This document shows, piece after piece, positions 42,488 through 53,502 of a DNA stretch of 64,000 nt. Within the stretch, counting starts at the first letter, position 1; every line of letters starts with the position of its first letter. The DNA is from Hydrogenimonas sp. GTDB lineage: Bacteria > Campylobacterota > Campylobacteria > Campylobacterales > Hydrogenimonadaceae. The notes below the pieces were generated by a model. The model was given only the letters and a program-made list of their open reading frames with translations, had not been told where the DNA came from and searched no databases. The stretch spans positions 2,121,747 through 2,185,746 of the forward strand of contig AP019005.1 in NCBI GenBank assembly GCA_003945285.1, in the 5' to 3' direction. A program made the position numbers and the translations under genes.

Positions 42488-43159
42488 ATGGGCAGATTTT
42501 TTTTCCCTCTCATTCTGGTTCTGGTGATATCCGGCTGCACGACCGACAACAGCGGTAACGGCGGCTTCGAGAGCAGAGAGCCCCCTGCGCAACAGAGAGG
42601 CAAGTACCGCACTTTCATCAGCGACGAAGAGCTGAAGACACAAAAAGAGCTGGCGCAGATCGAAGCGAAGAAGAGTGTCGAAATAGAGAAGATAAGCAGC
42701 GAAACGAAGCTGAAGGAGCTCGAACTCCGAAAGAGGGCCGAACTTGAGCTGATGCGCGAAAAGGAGAGGATGCTCAGGATCGAGCACGAGCAGTCGATGG
42801 AGCGCTACATGCTGCTCGGCGCTATTTTGCTGCTTCTGCTCGCGGGGGCGGCACTGCTGTGGTACTTCGACCGCAGGCGGAAAGACAAACTGCGGGCCTA
42901 CGAAGACAACCTGAAGAAATATTTCCACCAGAAAGAGAATGAATCTCGCATTAAGATAGCCGAAAAGATTCTGGATACGGTGGCCTCGAAAGATCTAAGC
43001 AGCGAACAGCGGGCAAAACTGATAGAGGCACTTCACGGCTCCTCCGGCCGAATAGTCGAGAGGAGGGAAGAGGTGGACCCGGCAGACCGTGAGGAGAGCG
43101 AAGAGGCGATTTTGATAGAGACGGAGGATAAGGAGAGAGACGATGGAACAAAAAAATAG
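42488..43159 (+). CDS. Lipoprotein with coiled coil and internal membrane helix
   Basis: The 223-residue protein starts with a lipoprotein signal ending VISGC (lipid Cys17). A charged coiled coil rich in Glu/Lys follows (about 50-105), then a strong membrane helix (about 106-126) flanked by RRRKDK, and a charged C-terminal region. The lipid anchor plus one helix predicts a periplasmic coiled coil and a cytoplasmic tail. No family was recognised. It overlaps the EI24 gene by 17 bases. Confidence 0.75.
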   Translation: MGRFFFPLILVLVISGCTTDNSGNGGFESREPPAQQRGKYRTFISDEELKTQKELAQIEAKKSVEIEKISSETKLKELELRKRAELELMREKERMLRIEHEQSMERYMLLGAILLLLLAGAALLWYFDRRRKDKLRAYEDNLKKYFHQKENESRIKIAEKILDTVASKDLSSEQRAKLIEALHGSSGRIVERREEVDPADREESEEAILIETEDKERDDGTKK

Positions 43160-43973
43160 CGGCTACACGGAGGGCGCCCTCTTCACAAAGAGCCTATCCG
43201 ATTTTTTAACGACTAAGTTTCTGGCACTGAGTACGGCCCCGTTTTTCATAACAATGCTGATATCTCTCATCTTCCTCTACTATCTGTCGGGGGAGTTTTT
43301 CCAGATGCTCGACGTAGCCGCGCAGGTTTCACAGAACCCCGATGCGGCGCAGGCACAGAACGAACTGGCACAGTTTGCGCAGGAGTACCCCATAATGTCG
43401 GCGATCCTTGGAAGCTTCATCTTCAAGGCTATAGCCGGAACACTCTTCTACCTTATAGGCGGGGGATTCGCGGTACTGGTATCGGTCATACTGGCTGTCA
43501 TCATCATAGGTTTCTTCACACCCTATATCGTAGCAGAAGTACAAAGGAGACACTATCCCGATATCGAGAGAAAGGCCACGGTTCCCATTGTCGACTATCT
43601 CTTTTTCCTTCTCAGGCAGTTCGGCCTGTTTCTTCTATTCTTCTTGGTATCCCTGCCCTTCTACTTCGTTCCGGTGCTCAATATAGTCGCTATGAACGCC
43701 CCCTTCTACTTCCTGTTTCATACACTTCTTACACGTGACGTGGCGGGGGAGATACTCGATAAAGAGGAGCAGAAGATCGTCTTTAAAAAAGCGAAGTGGC
43801 GCATCGCGACGACTACCGCGATCCTCTATCTGCTCTCCCTGATTCCGGCCGTTGGTATTTTGGGTCAGGTATTTTTCGTAATAGTGCTGGCGCACCAGTT
43901 TTTCCAGGAGGCCGCGCGGGTGAGAAACGCACAGATATATGGGATGGCAGAAAGAGAGGCTATCACGCACTAG
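43143..43973 (+). CDS. EI24 domain (CysZ-like) membrane protein
   Basis: The 276-residue protein has about six hydrophobic segments and the EI24/CysZ pattern: SLSDFLTTKFLALSTAPF at the start, LFFLVSLPFYFVPVLNIVAMNAPFYFLFHTLL in the middle, and VGILGQVFFVIVLAHQFF at the end. E. coli CysZ transports sulfate; other EI24 proteins have unrelated roles, so transport here is not certain. It is coupled to the upstream lipoprotein gene. Confidence 0.85.
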   Translation: MEQKNSGYTEGALFTKSLSDFLTTKFLALSTAPFFITMLISLIFLYYLSGEFFQMLDVAAQVSQNPDAAQAQNELAQFAQEYPIMSAILGSFIFKAIAGTLFYLIGGGFAVLVSVILAVIIIGFFTPYIVAEVQRRHYPDIERKATVPIVDYLFFLLRQFGLFLLFFLVSLPFYFVPVLNIVAMNAPFYFLFHTLLTRDVAGEILDKEEQKIVFKKAKWRIATTTAILYLLSLIPAVGILGQVFFVIVLAHQFFQEAARVRNAQIYGMAEREAITH

Positions 43974-43991: not shown

Positions 43992-44372
43992 CTACCACCT
44001 CAGCCCGATGCGTCCGCCCCCGATCAGCACAATCGCAAGCGCACCGATCAGAAAGAGAAGAGGGGTTTCGATTACCCATCCGCCGAATTTTCCGAGAGAG
44101 AAGAGGCTTCCGCCGTAGGCCAGCGCTATGGCGGCCGCCATGTTGAACGCTATCACCCCCGCGGCGATACGGCTGTAAAAACCGACGATAAGCGCTATCG
44201 GGGCCAGCACCTCGCCCAGGTATACCCCGTAGCCGATCCACTCCGGAAGAGAGTGGGCGGCAAGCATCGCCTTTACGCCGCCTATACCGTAGACAACTTT
44301 ATGGATACCGTGAAAGAGGAGCAGCCCTCCGACACCAAGCCTAAGCAGAAACTTTCCCCACTCTTCTCTCAT
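43992..44372 (-). CDS. DoxX family membrane protein
   Basis: The 126-residue four-helix membrane protein has the DoxX pattern LLRLGVGGLLLFHGIHKV, EWIGYGVYLGEVLAPIALIVG and IAAGVIAFNMAAAI. DoxX relatives are linked to quinone, thiol or oxidative-stress functions, mostly unproven. It starts 21 bases after the M14 peptidase gene, so it may be the last gene of that operon, or simply its neighbour. Confidence 0.85.
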   Translation of the reverse strand: MREEWGKFLLRLGVGGLLLFHGIHKVVYGIGGVKAMLAAHSLPEWIGYGVYLGEVLAPIALIVGFYSRIAAGVIAFNMAAAIALAYGGSLFSLGKFGGWVIETPLLFLIGALAIVLIGGGRIGLRW

Positions 44373-44393
44373 CTCTTCTCCTCTTTCGCAACA

Positions 44394-46982
44394 TCAGTTC
44401 GGAATATACTCCAGCACCACCGGTTCACTGAAGTTCGGAACGTCATCGTATGTGAAGAGGGCATAGTACTTCTTCACATCCAGTGCCCCGAAATCGTCGT
44501 ACGTCCAGCTGTCCGGGCCGCCGTAGAGTTTGTCGCCGTCGTATGGAGATATCGGCACCCTGAACGGATTTTTTATAACGAAAACCCCTCTGAAATCCGG
44601 GTCGTCGGGATTTTTCCAATCCAGTCTCACCTTCCCGTTCTCTATCCTGTAGCGCAGATCGCTCACGGCGGCCACCGGGCGGCGTCTTTTCTGCAGGTAC
44701 TCCACCACGAGCCTGGGGGTAAACTCAGGATGGGAGCTGTGCCACTCAACGACGGAGTTTTTCACAAGCTTCTGGGCGGCGCTGGGGCGGAGCAGAAATG
44801 CGATACCCTTTCCGCTTCTTAGCATATTTCCAAGCTCCTGTATAGCGTATGTATCGAACACGAAGACCTGCTCGCCGCTCTTTAGGTCTCCCGCACTGAC
44901 GTCGTAGCCTATATTCTCCACGATACGACGCTCTTTTATCGCACCGTAGTCCCTCTCGGTTTCGGGGTCTATCATCTCCAGATGGAAACGGATATTCTCC
45001 TTTACATATACCTTGACCGGTTTCAGCACGACGTAGGCCCTGGTGATCTGCATAAACTCCGGGTCGGGAAGCGAGCCCAGCTCGAAGTCGAACGTCGAGT
45101 AGATCTTTCTTCCCTCGCCGTCGAAACCGGCCGAAATTCTCCCCTCTTCCACACCGTCGGCCCTTACCGTGAAGCTTCGCTTCGGGTAGAGCTCCAAATC
45201 TTTACCGGCGAGTGTGTACGTTATCTCCAGGTGGGGTCGGAAAGCGAGTCCGCCGCCGAACTTCCCGTAGCCGATATCCCACTGCATCATCTGCGAACTT
45301 CTTCCCACATTGAGTCTTTTGGGGCCCTCTATCCGGAAAACGACCTCTTTGCCGGCTATCTGCTCCTGGAGAGCGCGGCACTCAATCTCGCTGAACTCCC
45401 AGCTTCTCCAGATGCCCTGCGTAAGATGGTTGGAGGGGGTGGGGCGCCCTACATATGTGAGGAGCCGCATATTTTCCACATCTTCAAACTCCGTAATATC
45501 GCCAACGGTTCGAGGGTCCGCTATCGCAGCGTTCCACTCCCCGTACTTTTCGACGGTGACGCCCACCCTGTTCATAGGGTAGAGGCGCAGACGGGCCCGC
45601 TTTATCACCGCATTTTCCGGAATGGTCCTGAGGGGTATCGTGATCACCGCATAGCTGACCCCCTTGGCTTCGCTTACACCGACAAAAAGGGAGTTGACCC
45701 CAAAGTGGGAAGCGTTCTCTTTCACCTTTTCGGCGACATACCCGGTCTTGGAGGGGAGGGGGAAGTAAGTACGGTGGAACTCGTCGTCGGCCACATGTGT
45801 CCTGACGGCAAGCACCGGAGCGTATGGAGATTTCCTGCCGCTGCTTTTGTCTACGGCCCTTATGTGGTAGAAGTAGAGCGTGTCGCTCTCTAGATTGTTG
45901 TCGCAGAAACGGTTCGCCTGTGTAATTCCCATCAGGTTGAAGCGGCGGCAGTAGGACTTTTCGCGCCTGCTGCGGTAGATTTCGAAATAGATATCCTCCC
46001 CGCTCTCTCCGTAGGGCTCCCATTCGAGTGTCACGTTTTCGATGCCTACGTGGGTCGCGCGGAAATTCCCGGGCCTGGGCATGAGGCTTCGGCGTGAGTA
46101 GTTGGGCGCCTCCATAATAGCCGCCACAAGTGCGGGAATGTGCTCTCTTATATGCTCTATCATATCGTCAAGGTAGTCGGAGATGTTTCTGGTTCCGACC
46201 TCGACGACACTTGCGAGTATCCCTTTGGAGTAGTAGAACTCCCTGCCGCTGCCGCTTATCAGCTTCGCGGGCGGCTTGCCCTGGTGGATACCGTACTCCC
46301 TGTCGCTGACCTTTCGTATCTCTTCCGCCATGTTGGCGCATAGGACATTCATGTCGGTCGTATCTATCGTATCTTCGTGCCTGAAGTCGTGCGCCGGGAA
46401 AAAGACGTTCCCCTGCGAATGGTAGTCGAGGGCTATCGATATGTTCGGATGCGACTCCACGAAGTCTCTCAGGGCCCTTGTTTCGGGCTCGCTGAAAGGC
46501 TCGGGGCCGCCGTATATGTTGGATGTAGGCTTGTTGGACTTCACGAAGCCTATCGGAAAGTTCCTGTTGAGGTCGACCCCGTAGCTGCCGTCGGCATTCT
46601 GCCTTCGGTTTTTGCGCCAGAAGGAGAAGTGGTTGCGCGAATACTCGAAACCGTCCGGGTTGGCACACGGAACCATATATATGGCGGCATCCTCCAGCGC
46701 TCTTTGCAGATCGTGATCGTACTCGATATTTCTCTCTACATACTGCGCGAAGCCGATAGCCAGTTCGAGGCCTATCCACTCTCTCGCGTGTACCGTTCCG
46801 GTAAAAAAGAGGGCGGGCTTCTGCGACGCATTCTCTACCGACTTCGAGACTGTGACGGCGATTATGTCGCGCTTCTCCCATGTAGTGCCTATGACTTCGA
46901 CGGCGAAAAGATCGGGCCGCCTCTTGGCGAGTTCACCGAAAAGGGCGACCGCTTCATCGTATGAGTGGTAGAGCTGTTTCAA
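44394..46982 (-). CDS. Large cytoplasmic M14 zinc carboxypeptidase with FN3 and DNRLRE-like domains
   Basis: The 862-residue protein has an N-terminal M14 domain (about 1-295) with zinc ligands His65, Glu68 (VHAREW) and His188 (LDYHSQ), substrate residues in WRKNRR and DLNRNFP, and catalytic Glu261 (VVEVGTR); all key residues are present. An FN3-like domain follows (about 310-395), then two DNRLRE/CBM-like beta regions (about 420-590 and 600-755) and a last FN3-like domain. No signal peptide or anchor is visible. M14 enzymes trim C-terminal amino acids. It starts 8 bases after the ATP-grasp-HhH gene. Confidence 0.88.
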   Translation of the reverse strand: MKQLYHSYDEAVALFGELAKRRPDLFAVEVIGTTWEKRDIIAVTVSKSVENASQKPALFFTGTVHAREWIGLELAIGFAQYVERNIEYDHDLQRALEDAAIYMVPCANPDGFEYSRNHFSFWRKNRRQNADGSYGVDLNRNFPIGFVKSNKPTSNIYGGPEPFSEPETRALRDFVESHPNISIALDYHSQGNVFFPAHDFRHEDTIDTTDMNVLCANMAEEIRKVSDREYGIHQGKPPAKLISGSGREFYYSKGILASVVEVGTRNISDYLDDMIEHIREHIPALVAAIMEAPNYSRRSLMPRPGNFRATHVGIENVTLEWEPYGESGEDIYFEIYRSRREKSYCRRFNLMGITQANRFCDNNLESDTLYFYHIRAVDKSSGRKSPYAPVLAVRTHVADDEFHRTYFPLPSKTGYVAEKVKENASHFGVNSLFVGVSEAKGVSYAVITIPLRTIPENAVIKRARLRLYPMNRVGVTVEKYGEWNAAIADPRTVGDITEFEDVENMRLLTYVGRPTPSNHLTQGIWRSWEFSEIECRALQEQIAGKEVVFRIEGPKRLNVGRSSQMMQWDIGYGKFGGGLAFRPHLEITYTLAGKDLELYPKRSFTVRADGVEEGRISAGFDGEGRKIYSTFDFELGSLPDPEFMQITRAYVVLKPVKVYVKENIRFHLEMIDPETERDYGAIKERRIVENIGYDVSAGDLKSGEQVFVFDTYAIQELGNMLRSGKGIAFLLRPSAAQKLVKNSVVEWHSSHPEFTPRLVVEYLQKRRRPVAAVSDLRYRIENGKVRLDWKNPDDPDFRGVFVIKNPFRVPISPYDGDKLYGGPDSWTYDDFGALDVKKYYALFTYDDVPNFSEPVVLEYIPN

Positions 46983-46990
46983 TAATTTTC

Positions 46991-48511
46991 CTACTTTATG
47001 GCGATATGGTCGCGGATTTTAGCCAATCTCTTTTTACCGAGACCTTTTATTTTCAACATATCTTCGATCTTTTCGAAAGGGCCGTTCTCTTTTCTGAAAT
47101 CGACTATCTTCTGCGCGAGCTTCTTCCCTATCGCCTCTATCCTGCTCAGGGTTTTGTACCCGGCCCTGTTGATATCGACCCTGTCGTGAAGATCCTCCGC
47201 CCACACTTTGAGCGTCTGTTTGTCGATACCCTCGAGCTCCAGAAGTTCCTCTATGCTCTTTATGTCGCGGCTCTTTATGTAGCGTATAACCTCTACGGCT
47301 ATCTCCTCTTCCATTCCGTGAAGCGTCATCAGTTCGGTCAGCGTGACACTCCCGAGCGACATTTCGCCGTCTTCGAGCTCATCGCGAACCTTCTCGCCGC
47401 TTCTCGACTCTTCGAGGACAGCCTCCGGCAGATCCTCTTCACTCTCTATGCGCCCGTGAAGATGCGAATCGTCCGGTATATCTTCGGGGAGGCTCTCTTC
47501 GGCCAGCTCCATATCCCATCTGCCCTCCCTGTCGTTTACATAGTATGCACCGTCCGTAGAGGGGGTGTACCTGCTGAAACCTATGTGGCGCATGGTTCTA
47601 AGAAGAGAGGAGTCTATCTTGCCGAGCTCTTCCCAGCTGTAGAGCGGCACGTGGGGCTTCTCAAAACGCCCCTCCGAGAAGTCCCACATTAGATACTGGC
47701 CTATCCAGTCACGGAAGTATGGGAATGCGGCGAAAGCGGTAGCGCACTCGAGTATGTAGTACTTTCCGTCATATTCAGCTATATCACAGGCCCAGTATTC
47801 GGCCTTCGCCGCTTTCGATGCCTCGACCGCCAGCTCCAGCGCACCCATAGGCACCCCTTCGTAGGTCATATAGCCGCCCTGCGAAGTGTTGGTAAGGTCC
47901 ATATCCTCCCCTGCCACTCTCCAGAAGGCGCACGCAGGCTTGTGGCCGATGAGCATCACCCGTATGTCGGCCCGCAGCGGAATGCACTCCTGTATATACA
48001 TAGGCATATACCTCTTCTCATCGAAGAGCTTTTTGGCCTCCTCTTCGGTTTTGACCTTGTGGACATAGTAGCCGCCGTAGTTGGAGGGTCCGTAGCTCCG
48101 CTTTATTATCACCGGATAGTCGCACTCTTCGAGGTAGCGGTAACCCTCTTCACGGTCGTAGAATATCTTTGTCTTCGGGTGCGAGAGGTTGTGCTTTTCG
48201 CAAAAGAGCGTAACGTTCTCCTTGCTCTTGTTGGGGAACTGCGTCTCCAGGGAGGGGACGAAACGGACGTGTGGAAGCTCTTTCGCTATCTCCCTGAAGG
48301 TCTCGTATGCGGTGGCTGGAATATTTCCGATCAGAATATCGATCTTCTTCTTTTTCACCTCCTCTATAAACCTCTTCTTGTCGTTGCCCCAGTGGTAGAC
48401 CACATGCTCTATCTTGTCGGGCCACCCTTTGAAGTTCGATCTGTCGAAAAACCTCAAAACGTAGTCGAGGTACAGCAGTCCCAGCTTCGGAAGTTTGCTC
48501 TTTTTGGCCAT
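46991..48511 (-). CDS. ATP-grasp domain protein fused to tandem ComEA-type helix-hairpin-helix repeats
   Basis: In the 506-residue product residues 1-290 are an ATP-grasp region: VIIKRS with Lys137, MYIQECIP (171-178), DIRVML (182-187). At the metal-binding position it reads LECA (254-257) instead of LEVN, so the conserved Asn is missing. An acidic linker (about 330-385) leads to two HhH units (388-440 and 445-503); the second, DINRAGYKTLSRIEAIGKKL with NGPFEKIEDML, is typical of ComEA DNA-binding repeats. ATP-grasp enzymes join carboxylates to amines. The fusion is unusual and could tether a ligase, or a dead ligase, to DNA. Confidence 0.8.
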   Translation of the reverse strand: MAKKSKLPKLGLLYLDYVLRFFDRSNFKGWPDKIEHVVYHWGNDKKRFIEEVKKKKIDILIGNIPATAYETFREIAKELPHVRFVPSLETQFPNKSKENVTLFCEKHNLSHPKTKIFYDREEGYRYLEECDYPVIIKRSYGPSNYGGYYVHKVKTEEEAKKLFDEKRYMPMYIQECIPLRADIRVMLIGHKPACAFWRVAGEDMDLTNTSQGGYMTYEGVPMGALELAVEASKAAKAEYWACDIAEYDGKYYILECATAFAAFPYFRDWIGQYLMWDFSEGRFEKPHVPLYSWEELGKIDSSLLRTMRHIGFSRYTPSTDGAYYVNDREGRWDMELAEESLPEDIPDDSHLHGRIESEEDLPEAVLEESRSGEKVRDELEDGEMSLGSVTLTELMTLHGMEEEIAVEVIRYIKSRDIKSIEELLELEGIDKQTLKVWAEDLHDRVDINRAGYKTLSRIEAIGKKLAQKIVDFRKENGPFEKIEDMLKIKGLGKKRLAKIRDHIAIK

Positions 48512-48559
48512 CTTTTTATATCCTTGTATATAATTTTTTCGGAGTCTATTAAAACTCTG

Positions 48560-49471
48560 TTACCGTCCGGTTGCAGTTTTCCTGTCAATCAGATCGACAA
48601 TCTTCTCTATCTTTCTGTCATTGAAGTCGAGCCCCGCCTTCTCCTGTTCGGGTGTGGCGAATGCCGGGATTCCGTTGACCTCCAGTACCAGGTACTCTTT
48701 TCTCTTTCTGTCATATATGATGTCAACGCCCGCTATCTCAAGCCCGACAATCTTTGCGGCCCTTTTGGCAAGATCGACAACCTCCTCTTCCGGTTCACGC
48801 AGAAATACGCTTCCGCCGCTGGTGATATTCGTACGCCAGTCGGTACCGCCCGCTTTTCGGCCGTAGCAGCCGACGAACTCGCCGTCTACAATATCCACAC
48901 GGTAGTCGGTGCGGTCGTAGTCTATAAACTTCTCCACGTAGAAGAAGCGAAGATCCATCTGGTTCAAAAAGGGCAGCAGCGTATCGAGTGTCGCTTCGTT
49001 GTCTATCTTGGTAAGGCCGACTCCGCCCCATCCGTCTGTCGGCTTGTAGACCATCTGCTTCCAGCTCCTGATGAACTTCTTAAGCCTCTTGGAGTCGTCC
49101 CTGTGGCATAGCCTGAAATCCGGTGTATTGACACCGCTGTTTCTAAGCAGGTAACTGGTCTGGAACTTGTCTTCACTAAGTTCGAAGGAGTCGTAGTTGT
49201 TGATGCAGGGAATCATACGGTTGAGCACCCTGTAGAGATACATCTGATACTGTGTCTGCTCACCGGCATTATAGCTGAAAAAGAGATCGAGCTTATCCAT
49301 ATTTATTCCGTGGCAGCGGATATGGCTGCTCTTTACGTAGGCGTCGCGCAGATTCAGCCCGGTAATGCTCTCTATTCCCCGCTCCCTGAGTTTTTTTACA
49401 ATTTTCTTCTCGATCCTCTCACCGCCCCCGTTTCGGTACATCCATATCCCTACCCGTCTCTTTCTAGCCAC
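48560..49471 (-). CDS. RimK-like ATP-grasp ligase
   Basis: The 303-residue protein has a complete ATP-grasp core: MVYKPTDGWGGVG (140-152, ATP loop), YVEKFID (178-184), DYRVDIVDGEFVGCYGRK (189-206), DWRTNITSGGSV and the metal site VLEVNGIPAF with Glu264 and Asn266. This RVDIVDG...RTN..SGG layout is that of RimK/F420-glutamyl ligases, which add amino acids through acyl-phosphates. Substrate is unknown. It overlaps the M20 gene by 8 bases and precedes a second, degenerate ATP-grasp gene. Confidence 0.88.
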   Translation of the reverse strand: MARKRRVGIWMYRNGGGERIEKKIVKKLRERGIESITGLNLRDAYVKSSHIRCHGINMDKLDLFFSYNAGEQTQYQMYLYRVLNRMIPCINNYDSFELSEDKFQTSYLLRNSGVNTPDFRLCHRDDSKRLKKFIRSWKQMVYKPTDGWGGVGLTKIDNEATLDTLLPFLNQMDLRFFYVEKFIDYDRTDYRVDIVDGEFVGCYGRKAGGTDWRTNITSGGSVFLREPEEEVVDLAKRAAKIVGLEIAGVDIIYDRKRKEYLVLEVNGIPAFATPEQEKAGLDFNDRKIEKIVDLIDRKTATGR

Positions 49472-50597
49472 AGATCACTCCTCTCTTTTGATGGTATGCA
49501 AGAACCTTCCTCATCAGCTCTATCCTCTCTTCGAAACTCCTTTTCAGGGCCCTCTCTTTCAGCGTATGGTCGCCGTCCCCGTAGGGGCCGAGTCCATCCA
49601 GGGTCACCACGCCCGCGGAAGCGACAATATTGGCGTCGCTGACACCGCCGCGCATCTCGGTCCCTATCTTCACTCCGGCGATCCGCTCCATCGACTCCAC
49701 AAGCTCCCTCTGCCAGGCGTTCGGCTCCATGACGTCACGCTGAATCGAGCCGCCCAGCCTTGCGGACGTACCCTCTACGTATGAACTGCCTACGATCTCG
49801 TCGAGGGCCGAAAGCAGCCTCTCACGCTCCCTGTTGTCGGCATACCGCAGCTCCAGCAGCAGTTTCGCGTGGGGGCTGATCGTATTGGCGCCTACGCCCC
49901 CCTCCATCCTGCCGACATTGACCGTAGAGCCCTTTTTGAAATCGGTCAGCGAGACGAGCTTCTGAAGTTTCAGCGCCGCCTCCAGGTTGGCGTCGCACCC
50001 CTTGTCGTAGGATGTCCCGGCGTGCGCACCCTTTCCTTCGATCGCTATTTCGAACGTGCCTATCCCCTTGCGGCCAACCACCACCTCCATCTGCGGACCT
50101 GCCGCTTCGAACACGAAGCACTTGTCATACTCTTTCGCCAGATCCCGGGTAAGCTGCCTCGAGTCGTCGCTTCCCGTCTCCTCGTCGCTGACCAGAAGAA
50201 AGTCGATATCCTCGATGCGCCCGAACTCTTCATAGAGACCCCTCAGCGCTTCGAGCGCCACTATATTGCCGCCCTTCATGTCGCACACACCGGGCCCGTA
50301 TACCCACTCTTCATCCTCTTCGAAGCCCTCGAAAGAGCCCGGGGGAAATACCGTATCCAGGTGGCCCAGAAGAAGTATCTTCTCCCTATTCGGCGTTTTT
50401 TCCGAACAGAAGAGCAGATGGTCGCCTATCAACTCCCTTTCGAACCTCTTTCTCTCCAGCCCTATCTCTTCCAGCCACGAGGCGAAGATATCTCCCACTC
50501 TGTCGACGCCCGCTTTGTTATGCGTATATGAGTTGACTCCTACGACCCTCTCCAGCTTCTCTCTCCATCCCATTCCTATACCACCCTTTTGTCTCAT
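49464..50597 (-). CDS. M20 family metallopeptidase (glutamate carboxypeptidase/ArgE-DapE type)
   Basis: The 377-residue protein has the dizinc motifs of M20 enzymes: LLGHLDTVFPP, GPGVCDMKGGN, VSDEETGSDDS with the general-base Glu, and a dimerisation domain starting GKGAHAG. It resembles carboxypeptidase G2-like enzymes that remove C-terminal Glu or hydrolyse short peptides in the cytosol. GGGAAG lies just before the ATG at 50597; ATG at 50573 is an alternative. It is the first gene of the ATP-grasp operon and is divergent from the GGDEF/EAL gene. Confidence 0.9.
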   Translation of the reverse strand: MRQKGGIGMGWREKLERVVGVNSYTHNKAGVDRVGDIFASWLEEIGLERKRFERELIGDHLLFCSEKTPNREKILLLGHLDTVFPPGSFEGFEEDEEWVYGPGVCDMKGGNIVALEALRGLYEEFGRIEDIDFLLVSDEETGSDDSRQLTRDLAKEYDKCFVFEAAGPQMEVVVGRKGIGTFEIAIEGKGAHAGTSYDKGCDANLEAALKLQKLVSLTDFKKGSTVNVGRMEGGVGANTISPHAKLLLELRYADNRERERLLSALDEIVGSSYVEGTSARLGGSIQRDVMEPNAWQRELVESMERIAGVKIGTEMRGGVSDANIVASAGVVTLDGLGPYGDGDHTLKERALKRSFEERIELMRKVLAYHQKRGVICG

Positions 50598-50814
50598 CTT
50601 CCCTATTCTATCATCTTGTACTTTAACCGCTCCGGCAAAGTGCCGATATTTTTATAATCTATCAGATACGAACTTCGCGCGACAGTTCTGCTGCATTGCT
50701 AGAGAGTCGGAAAGTTTTACGGCTGAGCTATTTTTTGCTATTATTAATAATCGGGTTCGGTTAAAAACCCAAGTCTATATCACCATTCAACTTTGGAGTG
50801 GGCCAGGGAGTTTT

Positions 50815-53502
50815 ATGGATATGAGAGCACTGGAGATATCCCGACAAGAGATTGAACAGATATCGGCTCTATTCGACATTCAGAACGGAGAGAGCGGAGT
50901 TTCGGGAGAGTTGGCGCGTATAGCGGGCAGATACAGAGAGAGGCTCGCCGGGCTTTTTGCAGAGCAGACGAAGGGGCTGCTTTCAAAAAAGAGGAGAGAG
51001 GAGCTGCCTCGCGGCCTGACGGAGAGTATCGGCAGCTATCTGGCCGACATCTTCGAGAGACGGCTGGATGAGGAGTCCGTTGAAAACCGTATAGCCGTAA
51101 TCTACTCGCTGATGGATGCCGGGTTGAACCTTGAAGAGGTCTGCTCCATATTCTCCTCTCTTTTCAAGGCGGTAACGGAAGCCATTCTATCCGAAGAGTA
51201 CGGCAAAGAGAAGAGTGCACAACTCTGCACGCTGCTCAACCGCATTCAGCTTCTGGAGCTCTCCATAGTCGCCAGGGGTTTCGAACATGAAGAGAGCAAC
51301 AGATACAGGAGATTGGCCCAAACCTACAGAACTGTTCTAGATGCCATGCATGACGGTATGGTTGTAATCAATGCCGATACCGACAAAATCGTGGAGGTGA
51401 ACCGCCGAATAGAGAATATGACTGGTCTCTCAAGAGAGGAGCTTCTCGGCAGCGAAGTATTCATTCTTCACCCTCCCGAGTTCAGAAAAATCGTTACGAG
51501 GACACTGGCGGAAGCGAAAGAGAGAGATTTCGGCCTGATTCCGGAGATATATCTGCTCAACAGCAAAAACGACGAGTATATCCCTGTCGAAGATACATAT
51601 TCACAGTACCGGCTGGATGAAGAGAGGTTCATAGTAAAAGTGGTCAGGGATATTACCGACAGGTTGAGCTCTCAAAAGAAACTTAGCCGCCTCAACAGGC
51701 TCTACAGGGTGCTGAGTGCAGTCAATGAGCAGATTATACGGACCACCTCCAAGGCCGAACTCTACCAGAATATCTGCAGGATAATCGTAGAGGAGGGCGG
51801 GTTCAAATTCGCCTGGATAGCGGAACTGAAAAATGAGTCAGAGGTAGAGCCCGTAGCATACTCCGATACCTCATACTTCTACGAGAACATAAAAGAGGCG
51901 CTGGAGGTATCCGGCAAAAGCGACATAAGCGAAGTGGTAAAGCAGCTCAAGCGTGACGGATACAGAAAGTGCAGGGAGTGTATCAGTAACGGATCCGGCG
52001 AGGAGAAGCTCACGATACCTATCTGGCATGATCGTGAAAAGATAGGAATCCCCCTCCACAGCGGAGCGGAGATAAGGGCCATAATGAAGATATACACGAT
52101 CGAGGCCGATTTTTTCGGTGATGAAGAGATAAGACTTTTCAAAGAGATAGCCGACGATATCTCCTATGCGGTAACCACCCTAGAACACAAAGAGAGGGTA
52201 GAGTTCCTGACCAACTTCGACCTTCTTACCCGGCTCCCGAACCGCCACCTCTTCAAGGCGAGGCTCGATATGGCCGTTCAGAGCGCAAATTACAAAAAAG
52301 AGGTCTTTGCGGCGGTACTTGTAGATATAGATCAGATGCGATACATAAACGACAGTTACGGATTCGGATTCGGGGACAAGCTGGTGATGAAGGTGGCAAG
52401 AGAACTGAAAACCCTCATCCGCCCCCAGGACGAACTGGCCCGCTTCGGCAGCGACGAATTTTCGATTCTCTTTTTCGATATCAAAAACAGGGAGCAGATT
52501 GTGGAGCTGGTAAAAGAGATCTCCGCCATATCCCAACACCCCGTTCAGATAGACGGAGCGGAGATATATATGAGCATCAGCATCGGCGTCGCGCTGTTCC
52601 CGAAAGATTCACACCTGCCGGACGAGATAATAGCTGCCGCGGAGGCGGCTCTGGAGAGGGCAAAAAAACAGGGCGGCAACTGCTACGTATTCTACTCGGA
52701 AGAGATGAACAGCGAAGTGCAGTCGAAAATACGCCTCCAAAACGAACTCTTCAAAGCCTACGAAAACAGCGAATTCGAGCTATATTACCAGCCGCAGATC
52801 TCGAGCGGCTCGAAAAAGATAACGGGTGCCGAAGCACTGATAAGATGGAACCATCCCGAAAGAGGGTTGGTATCTCCCGGTGAGTTCATCCCCATACTGG
52901 AAGAGAGCTCACTCATAGAGAGAGTCGGGGCGTGGATAATAGAAGAGGCGTGCCGGCAGATCAAAAGATGGTCCGAAAACGGCATAAATATTCCGATATC
53001 TATCGCGATCAACATCTCAGCCAAACAGATATCCCGGGACAGTTCGTTCTTCGAGAAACTGCTGGATACAGTGAAAAACTCGGGAATCGACCCCTCTCTT
53101 CTTCATCTGGAGATAACAGAGTCGGTAATAATGGAGAGTCTTCCGCAGATGGAGAGGGGCCTGGCCCTTCTCAAAGAGCACGGAATCCTCTCGGCTATCG
53201 ACGACTTCGGAACGGGCTACTCATCTTTGAGCTATCTCAAGAGGCTGCCCGTCTACGCGCTCAAGATAGACCGCTCTTTCATCAGCGGACTTCCGGAGAA
53301 CGGTGAAGATGCAGCCATAGTCGACGCGATCATAGCGATGGCGAAAAGATTGGAAAAAGAGACTATCGCCGAAGGTGTCGAAAGCGGCGAGCAGCTCAAG
53401 TTCCTGGAGCAGCACGGATGCGACACGATCCAGGGATATCTCTTCGCAAAGCCTATGAGCTCCGGAGATTTCGAGGAGTTTTTCAAAAAATATAAAGTTT
53501 GA
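50815..53502 (+). CDS. GGDEF/EAL protein with globin-sensor-like N-terminus, PAS and GAF domains
   Basis: From the ATG at 50815 (GGGAG four bases upstream) the protein has 895 residues. Residues 1-165 are a helical bundle resembling sensor globins (RLDEESVENRIAVIYSLMDAGLNLEE), but the position of the heme-binding His is occupied by Tyr97/Ser98. PAS (about 170-290) and GAF-like (about 305-455) domains follow, then GGDEF with GSDEF instead of GGDEF, likely inactive, and an EAL domain with EALIRW, EITESV and DDFGTGYSS intact. It should degrade c-di-GMP. The longer open frame upstream is antisense to the M20 gene. Confidence 0.9.
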   Translation: MDMRALEISRQEIEQISALFDIQNGESGVSGELARIAGRYRERLAGLFAEQTKGLLSKKRREELPRGLTESIGSYLADIFERRLDEESVENRIAVIYSLMDAGLNLEEVCSIFSSLFKAVTEAILSEEYGKEKSAQLCTLLNRIQLLELSIVARGFEHEESNRYRRLAQTYRTVLDAMHDGMVVINADTDKIVEVNRRIENMTGLSREELLGSEVFILHPPEFRKIVTRTLAEAKERDFGLIPEIYLLNSKNDEYIPVEDTYSQYRLDEERFIVKVVRDITDRLSSQKKLSRLNRLYRVLSAVNEQIIRTTSKAELYQNICRIIVEEGGFKFAWIAELKNESEVEPVAYSDTSYFYENIKEALEVSGKSDISEVVKQLKRDGYRKCRECISNGSGEEKLTIPIWHDREKIGIPLHSGAEIRAIMKIYTIEADFFGDEEIRLFKEIADDISYAVTTLEHKERVEFLTNFDLLTRLPNRHLFKARLDMAVQSANYKKEVFAAVLVDIDQMRYINDSYGFGFGDKLVMKVARELKTLIRPQDELARFGSDEFSILFFDIKNREQIVELVKEISAISQHPVQIDGAEIYMSISIGVALFPKDSHLPDEIIAAAEAALERAKKQGGNCYVFYSEEMNSEVQSKIRLQNELFKAYENSEFELYYQPQISSGSKKITGAEALIRWNHPERGLVSPGEFIPILEESSLIERVGAWIIEEACRQIKRWSENGINIPISIAINISAKQISRDSSFFEKLLDTVKNSGIDPSLLHLEITESVIMESLPQMERGLALLKEHGILSAIDDFGTGYSSLSYLKRLPVYALKIDRSFISGLPENGEDAAIVDAIIAMAKRLEKETIAEGVESGEQLKFLEQHGCDTIQGYLFAKPMSSGDFEEFFKKYKV

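Follow-up and report, generated by a model that had tools for sequence, protein, structure and literature searches.

Two ATP-grasp proteins, an M14 zinc carboxypeptidase and an M20 metallopeptidase are encoded together in Hydrogenimonas sp. and constitute a conserved four-gene module. We suggest that this module serves to attach short peptide tags of glutamate (acidic residues) in the cytoplasm, most likely to a cellular protein, and to take them off again, and estimate the probability of this reading as slightly below one half (about 0.48). The module was analyzed in a window of 64,000 nucleotides (here and below, the window is the whole analyzed stretch of DNA) from a genome represented by a single contig of 2.19 Mb.

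The preliminary description listed five minus-strand open reading frames in the order M20, RimK-like, ATP-grasp–HhH, M14 and DoxX, with junctions of –8, 48, 8 and 21 bases, and both the order and the junctions follow from the coordinates. The M20 metallopeptidase (49464..50597, minus strand, 377 aa) matches Peptidase_M20 and M20_dimer (PF01546, 1.2e-20, and PF07687), and the RimK-like ATP-grasp ligase (48560..49471, minus strand, 303 aa, GTG start) matches PF08443 (2.9e-18). The ATP-grasp–HhH protein (46991..48511, minus strand, 506 aa) combines the RimK domain PF08443 with PF12836 (HHH_3), the M14 zinc carboxypeptidase (44394..46982, minus strand, 862 aa, TTG start) matches PF00246 (3.2e-56), and the DoxX-family membrane protein (43992..44372, minus strand, 126 aa) matches PF07681. 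All these assignments are above the Pfam gathering cut-offs and agree with the domain families named earlier. The four enzymes were also said to lack an export signal, and none of them has a hydrophobic N-terminus, the best N-terminal 15-residue hydropathy stretch reaching only 0.27–0.89. Divergently from the module, at 50266–53502 on the plus strand, there is a large open reading frame that reads as a GGDEF/EAL cyclic-di-GMP protein; the activity of Pseudomonas RimK responds to c-di-GMP. A plus-strand gene at 43143–43973, convergent with the operon end, encodes an EI24/CysZ-like membrane protein (PF07264).

Relatives of the ATP-grasp–HhH protein were gathered from public genomes and from related genomes, and open reading frames in the resulting 69 loci were clustered. 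The four enzymes are adjacent in most of these loci, and the conserved-neighborhood check proposed earlier thus finds them together in distant genomes of three phyla. The carriers belong to Campylobacterota, Desulfuromonadales and Gammaproteobacteria (Pseudoalteromonas, Endozoicomonas, Sansalvadorimonas, Veronia, a Photobacterium plasmid, whose annotation yields no gene names, and a Cycloclasticus-like genome), and many marine taxa are found among the record titles. The RimK-like gene immediately precedes the ATP-grasp–HhH gene in almost every locus; as a rule, M14 immediately follows this pair and M20 is located on its upstream side. The placement of M20 in the operon is correct for the window and holds for Hydrogenimonas, Arcobacter-type and Desulfuromonadales loci, whereas in most other relatives M20 is divergent and directly upstream. 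DoxX had been counted as a part of the unit; it adjoins the module in only two of the 69 loci, those of the two closest relatives, and was rejected as a member. It is a local neighbor, and the conserved module comprises the other four genes.

No further family is widely conserved beside the module among the clustered open reading frames of the 69 loci; the most common non-module family, a generic response regulator or ABC protein, occurs in ten of them. A hidden small gene for the target inside the cluster was considered and rejected, as none is conserved in these loci and scattered copies of the module genes have differing neighbors. The set is present in only 8 out of 296 genomes of the order holding Pseudoalteromonas, and the ATP-grasp of Desulfuromusa is closer to the window copy (63% identity) than that of Nitratiruptor (59%), which makes transfer of the module between phyla likely.

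The four genes are inherited together both with and without linkage. Out of 100 Campylobacterales genomes, 35 contain all four genes, 61 none, and 4 a mixed set; the full set is present in ten families, and the pairwise Fisher p for co-occurrence of the four genes, not corrected for phylogeny, ranges from 1e-22 to 1e-26. Of the mixed genomes, three are incomplete in different ways: G018 (L146) has M14 and M20 without either ATP-grasp, G025 (L145) has only M20 and the RimK-like protein, and one has M20 alone. In the fourth, a 79%-complete assembly, only M20 is missing.

In all checked genomes where M14 does not adjoin the other genes, it is encoded at another site (14 handles; G041 and G655 represent one assembly, and L109 and L053 are included although M14 adjoins the module there). 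In four genomes (G067, G079, G091 and G027) the four genes reside on four different contigs; three of these scattered copies were inspected and have unrelated neighbors and open frames. In G032, M20, the RimK-like gene and M14 are at 1.64 Mb, and the ATP-grasp, next to efp and dnaE, is at 0.80 Mb. This efp/dnaE site (L147:7237-7437, L130:7000-8418) contains an intact HhH ATP-grasp gene in G032 and its decayed pseudogene in the relative G088, where the RimK-like, M14 and M20 genes are all absent.

The retention of the genes after scattering means that linked transfer alone is insufficient as an explanation. Given the adjacency in most of the 69 loci and the near-coincident profiles in the 100 genomes, the grouping of the genes is far beyond chance, and a common process for all four proteins is highly probable. 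The suggestion that the ligases and the C-terminal-trimming peptidases act in one cytoplasmic process hence gains from both observations, neighborhood in distant genomes and co-occurrence of unlinked genes. Anti-phage defence was rejected as such a process: PADLOC yields no matches for the four enzymes, and no phage homologue of the ATP-grasp was found.

In the RimK-like protein, the metal triad D250/E264/N266 and the ATP lysine K143 are invariant in 61 out of 61 relatives, and the nearest solved structures are those of Pseudomonas RimK, ArgX and E. coli RimK. The protein is below all named equivalog cut-offs (RimK, LysX, MptN, CofF), e.g., it scores 52.6 bits against the S6--L-glutamate ligase RimK equivalog, with the cut-off at 331. 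We propose from these similarities that 48560..49471 encodes a glutamate ligase, the superfamily being a glutamate-adding one. Still, free poly-glutamate and cofactors are also among the products of the RimK family, a point against the protein-tag reading.

One alternative of this kind, which we consider improbable, is a small-molecule pathway, in which a cofactor or metabolite would receive glutamate (or some other residue) from the ligases and be matured or recycled by the peptidases (cf. MptN, CofF and folate polyglutamylation). MptN is indeed the top-scoring family for the RimK-like protein (1e-39), and CofF is matched as well, both below the cut-off, and M20 enzymes of the carboxypeptidase G2 type act on folate glutamates. 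Against this, no further biosynthetic gene is conserved near the module in the 69 loci, and a carboxypeptidase of 862 aa would be unusual for a small metabolite. Moreover, the LysW carrier (TIGR01206), positive in 4 out of 14 controls, is missing in all 60 genomes analyzed, including that of the window, and this excludes the LysW amino-group carrier pathway.

The second ATP-grasp consists of a RimK-like domain (approximately residues 1–330), a variable linker and a C-terminal helix-hairpin-helix domain. The ATP-grasp domain is almost frozen across relatives, and the predicted model matches LysX, RimK and ArgX, with low confidence in the linker; HHH_5 is identified in 27 out of 33 relatives, with divergent motifs. 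In all 69 proteins the E-x-N metal motif reads E255-C-A257, that is, D243 and E255 are kept and the asparagine is replaced by Ala257. Stand-alone ATP-grasp relatives from Desulfobacterota (L122–L128; approximately 28–35% identity, mostly about 260 aa) retain the canonical E-x-N, and hence the loss of this metal ligand appears to be specific to the module. No peptidase neighbors were found for these stand-alone proteins, and they were not accepted as related modules. The HhH protein may act as a modified ligase or, alternatively, as a partner that binds ATP, and its HhH domain could participate in binding of the target or of nucleic acid. In addition, a relative from a Cycloclasticus-like MAG (L108:8001-9650) has a C-terminal DUF1643 in place of HhH; this domain was matched in one ATP-grasp member (1e-38), and the L108 sequence has a divergent C-terminal extension.

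The M14 protein combines a domain of the carboxypeptidase A/B (CPA/CPB) fold (approximately residues 1–295) with about 570 aa of beta-rich, fn3 and DNRLRE-like, domains; fn3 is present in 20 out of 33 relatives, and the DNRLRE match is weak. The predicted model has pLDDT 86 and matches the CPA/B fold with TMt 0.83. Residues H65, E68 and H188 (zinc ligands), R123, N139, R140 and E261 are invariant in 57 out of 57 sequences, and so is arginine at R247, which aligns with I255 of CPA4, the specificity position. A hydrophobic residue at position 255 corresponds to CPA, aspartate to CPB, and arginine to carboxypeptidase O (CPO) and removal of acidic residues, with other pocket residues contributing, so that residue 255 alone does not fully set specificity (PMC9925722). 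In line with this caution, a Burkholderia M14D enzyme with a lysine pocket fitting glutamate cleaved a glutamate test substrate poorly (PMC3940198). With these limits, we propose from the pocket residue that the M14 enzyme trims acidic residues specifically. Its beta domains resemble extracellular domains, which is a point against tagging in the cytoplasm.

Cell-wall peptides are substrates of certain bacterial M14 enzymes, and the role of the module might accordingly be recycling of peptidoglycan or other peptides, with residues re-attached by the ligases. We regard this explanation as very improbable, since the window enzyme is CPA/CPB-like in both fold and sequence, with all CPA catalytic residues and arginine at position 255, no cell-wall gene is conserved nearby in the 69 loci, and the module is dispensable in 61 out of the 100 related genomes.

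For the M20 protein, the nearest solved relative is carboxypeptidase G2, an enzyme that releases glutamate (1cg2, E 1.9e-28, near full-length alignment). In NCBIfam, the protein matches PRK07338 and the glutamate carboxypeptidase family (PRK06133, 178.8 bits, cut-off 349), in no case reaching the curated cut-off. By this relationship, we propose that M20 removes the last or branch-point glutamate. The invariant arginine at the acidic-specificity position of M14, together with the kinship of M20 to carboxypeptidase G2, argues for glutamate as the residue added and removed.

These features allow for a division of labor in the proposed tagging cycle. The RimK-like ligase and its HhH partner would couple L-glutamate to a target carboxylate at the expense of ATP and extend the chain, the HhH protein being either the initiating ligase or an ATP-binding, target-recognizing subunit. 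The M14 enzyme, with arginine in the S1' pocket, would trim acidic residues one by one from the chain end, and the carboxypeptidase G2-like M20 would take off the last or branch-point glutamate, resetting the target. The cycle of peptide addition and removal suggested in the preliminary description is consistent with the coupling of ligases and peptidases, and its glutamate specificity is further backed by both peptidases, while the second ATP-grasp, devoid of the metal-binding asparagine, fits it less well.

The strongest rival explanation is a free product, poly-alpha-glutamate or a Glu-rich peptide, serving as a storage compound, osmolyte or signal, which the ATP-grasps would make and M14 and M20 degrade in a cyanophycin-like manner. 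RimK of Pseudomonas and E. coli yields free poly-alpha-L-glutamate in vitro, and RimK of strain SBW25 does so in vivo (PMC11957791). An M14 enzyme with an acidic pocket and a CPG2-like M20 would digest such a polymer to glutamate, the RimK-like protein matches cyanophycin synthetase, and the marine carriers also fit. We nevertheless consider this explanation unlikely, as by itself it accounts neither for HhH on the second ATP-grasp nor for the large beta-rich extension of M14, and the module is not accompanied by any conserved transporter or regulator.

Returning to a tag on a cellular protein, ribosomal protein S6 is no obvious target and was rejected, as in the genome of the window it ends with ...PAETAGETA, not with glutamate. 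In a more specific and more tentative version of the tagging reading, the module could be a transferable glutamylation code, in which two cooperating ATP-grasps write acidic tags on a specific protein recognized or positioned by HhH, and the M14 trimmer and the M20 branch-point remover erase them, similarly to eukaryotic TTLL/CCP and with different enzymes.

No description of the exact four-enzyme set was found in the searchable literature. The ATP-grasp neighborhood review by Iyer et al. 2009 reportedly proposed tagging systems combining ATP-grasps and peptidases, and in view of this earlier proposal the general type of system is not new. A text related to such systems is available (PMC4431377). 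The earlier claim that no system with this exact set is described stands in that no matching characterized pathway was found and LysW is excluded; it does not extend to the kind of system, given the RimK/RimB precedent. Overall, the literature points to a glutamate add-and-remove cycle already known in bacteria (RimK/RimB, PMC7343187) and to a four-enzyme set that is apparently undescribed. If the tagging reading is true, the module would be a second set of writers and erasers, with unrelated erasers, spread between phyla and kept whole when scattered, indicating repeated evolution of such cycles in a compact, genetically testable system. To our knowledge, few cases of proteins being reversibly tagged with amino acids occur outside eukaryotes, and RimK/RimB is the only established bacterial glutamate cycle that we have found.

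Several known systems share a part of this composition. The LysX/LysK–LysW and ArgX carrier pathways also combine a RimK-like ligase with an M20 hydrolase, and both module ATP-grasps are close to LysX, ArgX and RimK; unlike these pathways, the module contains M14, and LysZ, LysY and LysJ are not conserved beside it. Vertebrate carboxypeptidase O has the same M14A fold and arginine at position 255, specific to acidic C-terminal residues, but is a secreted intestinal digestive enzyme with neither a beta-rich extension nor a ligase partner. Carboxypeptidase G2, the closest solved relative of the module M20, is periplasmic and acts on folates, whereas the module M20 has no export signal and is well under the cut-off of the glutamate carboxypeptidase family.

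In eukaryotic TTLL/CCP systems, ligases of the ATP-grasp fold are likewise opposed by acidic-specific M14 carboxypeptidases. However, the module M14 is CPA/CPB-like (M14A type) rather than CCP-like, TTLLs belong to another ATP-grasp branch, and the module has no tubulin and an additional M20 peptidase.

In the RimA/RimB/RimK system of Pseudomonas, RimK adds glutamates to RpsF and RimB removes them, leaving a tail of approximately four residues; an additional, resetting protease has been postulated (PMC7343187). The module differs from it in the peptidases, M14 and M20 instead of the retropepsin-like aspartic protease RimB, in the second, divergent ATP-grasp with HhH, and in that the Pseudomonas target RpsF ends in glutamate and the local S6 does not; no RimA or RimB gene is conserved beside the module among the clustered open reading frames of the 69 loci. 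What the two systems have in common is a RimK-type ligase genetically paired with a cytoplasmic glutamate-removing protease (putatively so in the module) and a scattered, transfer-like distribution (PMC7343187, PMC11957791).
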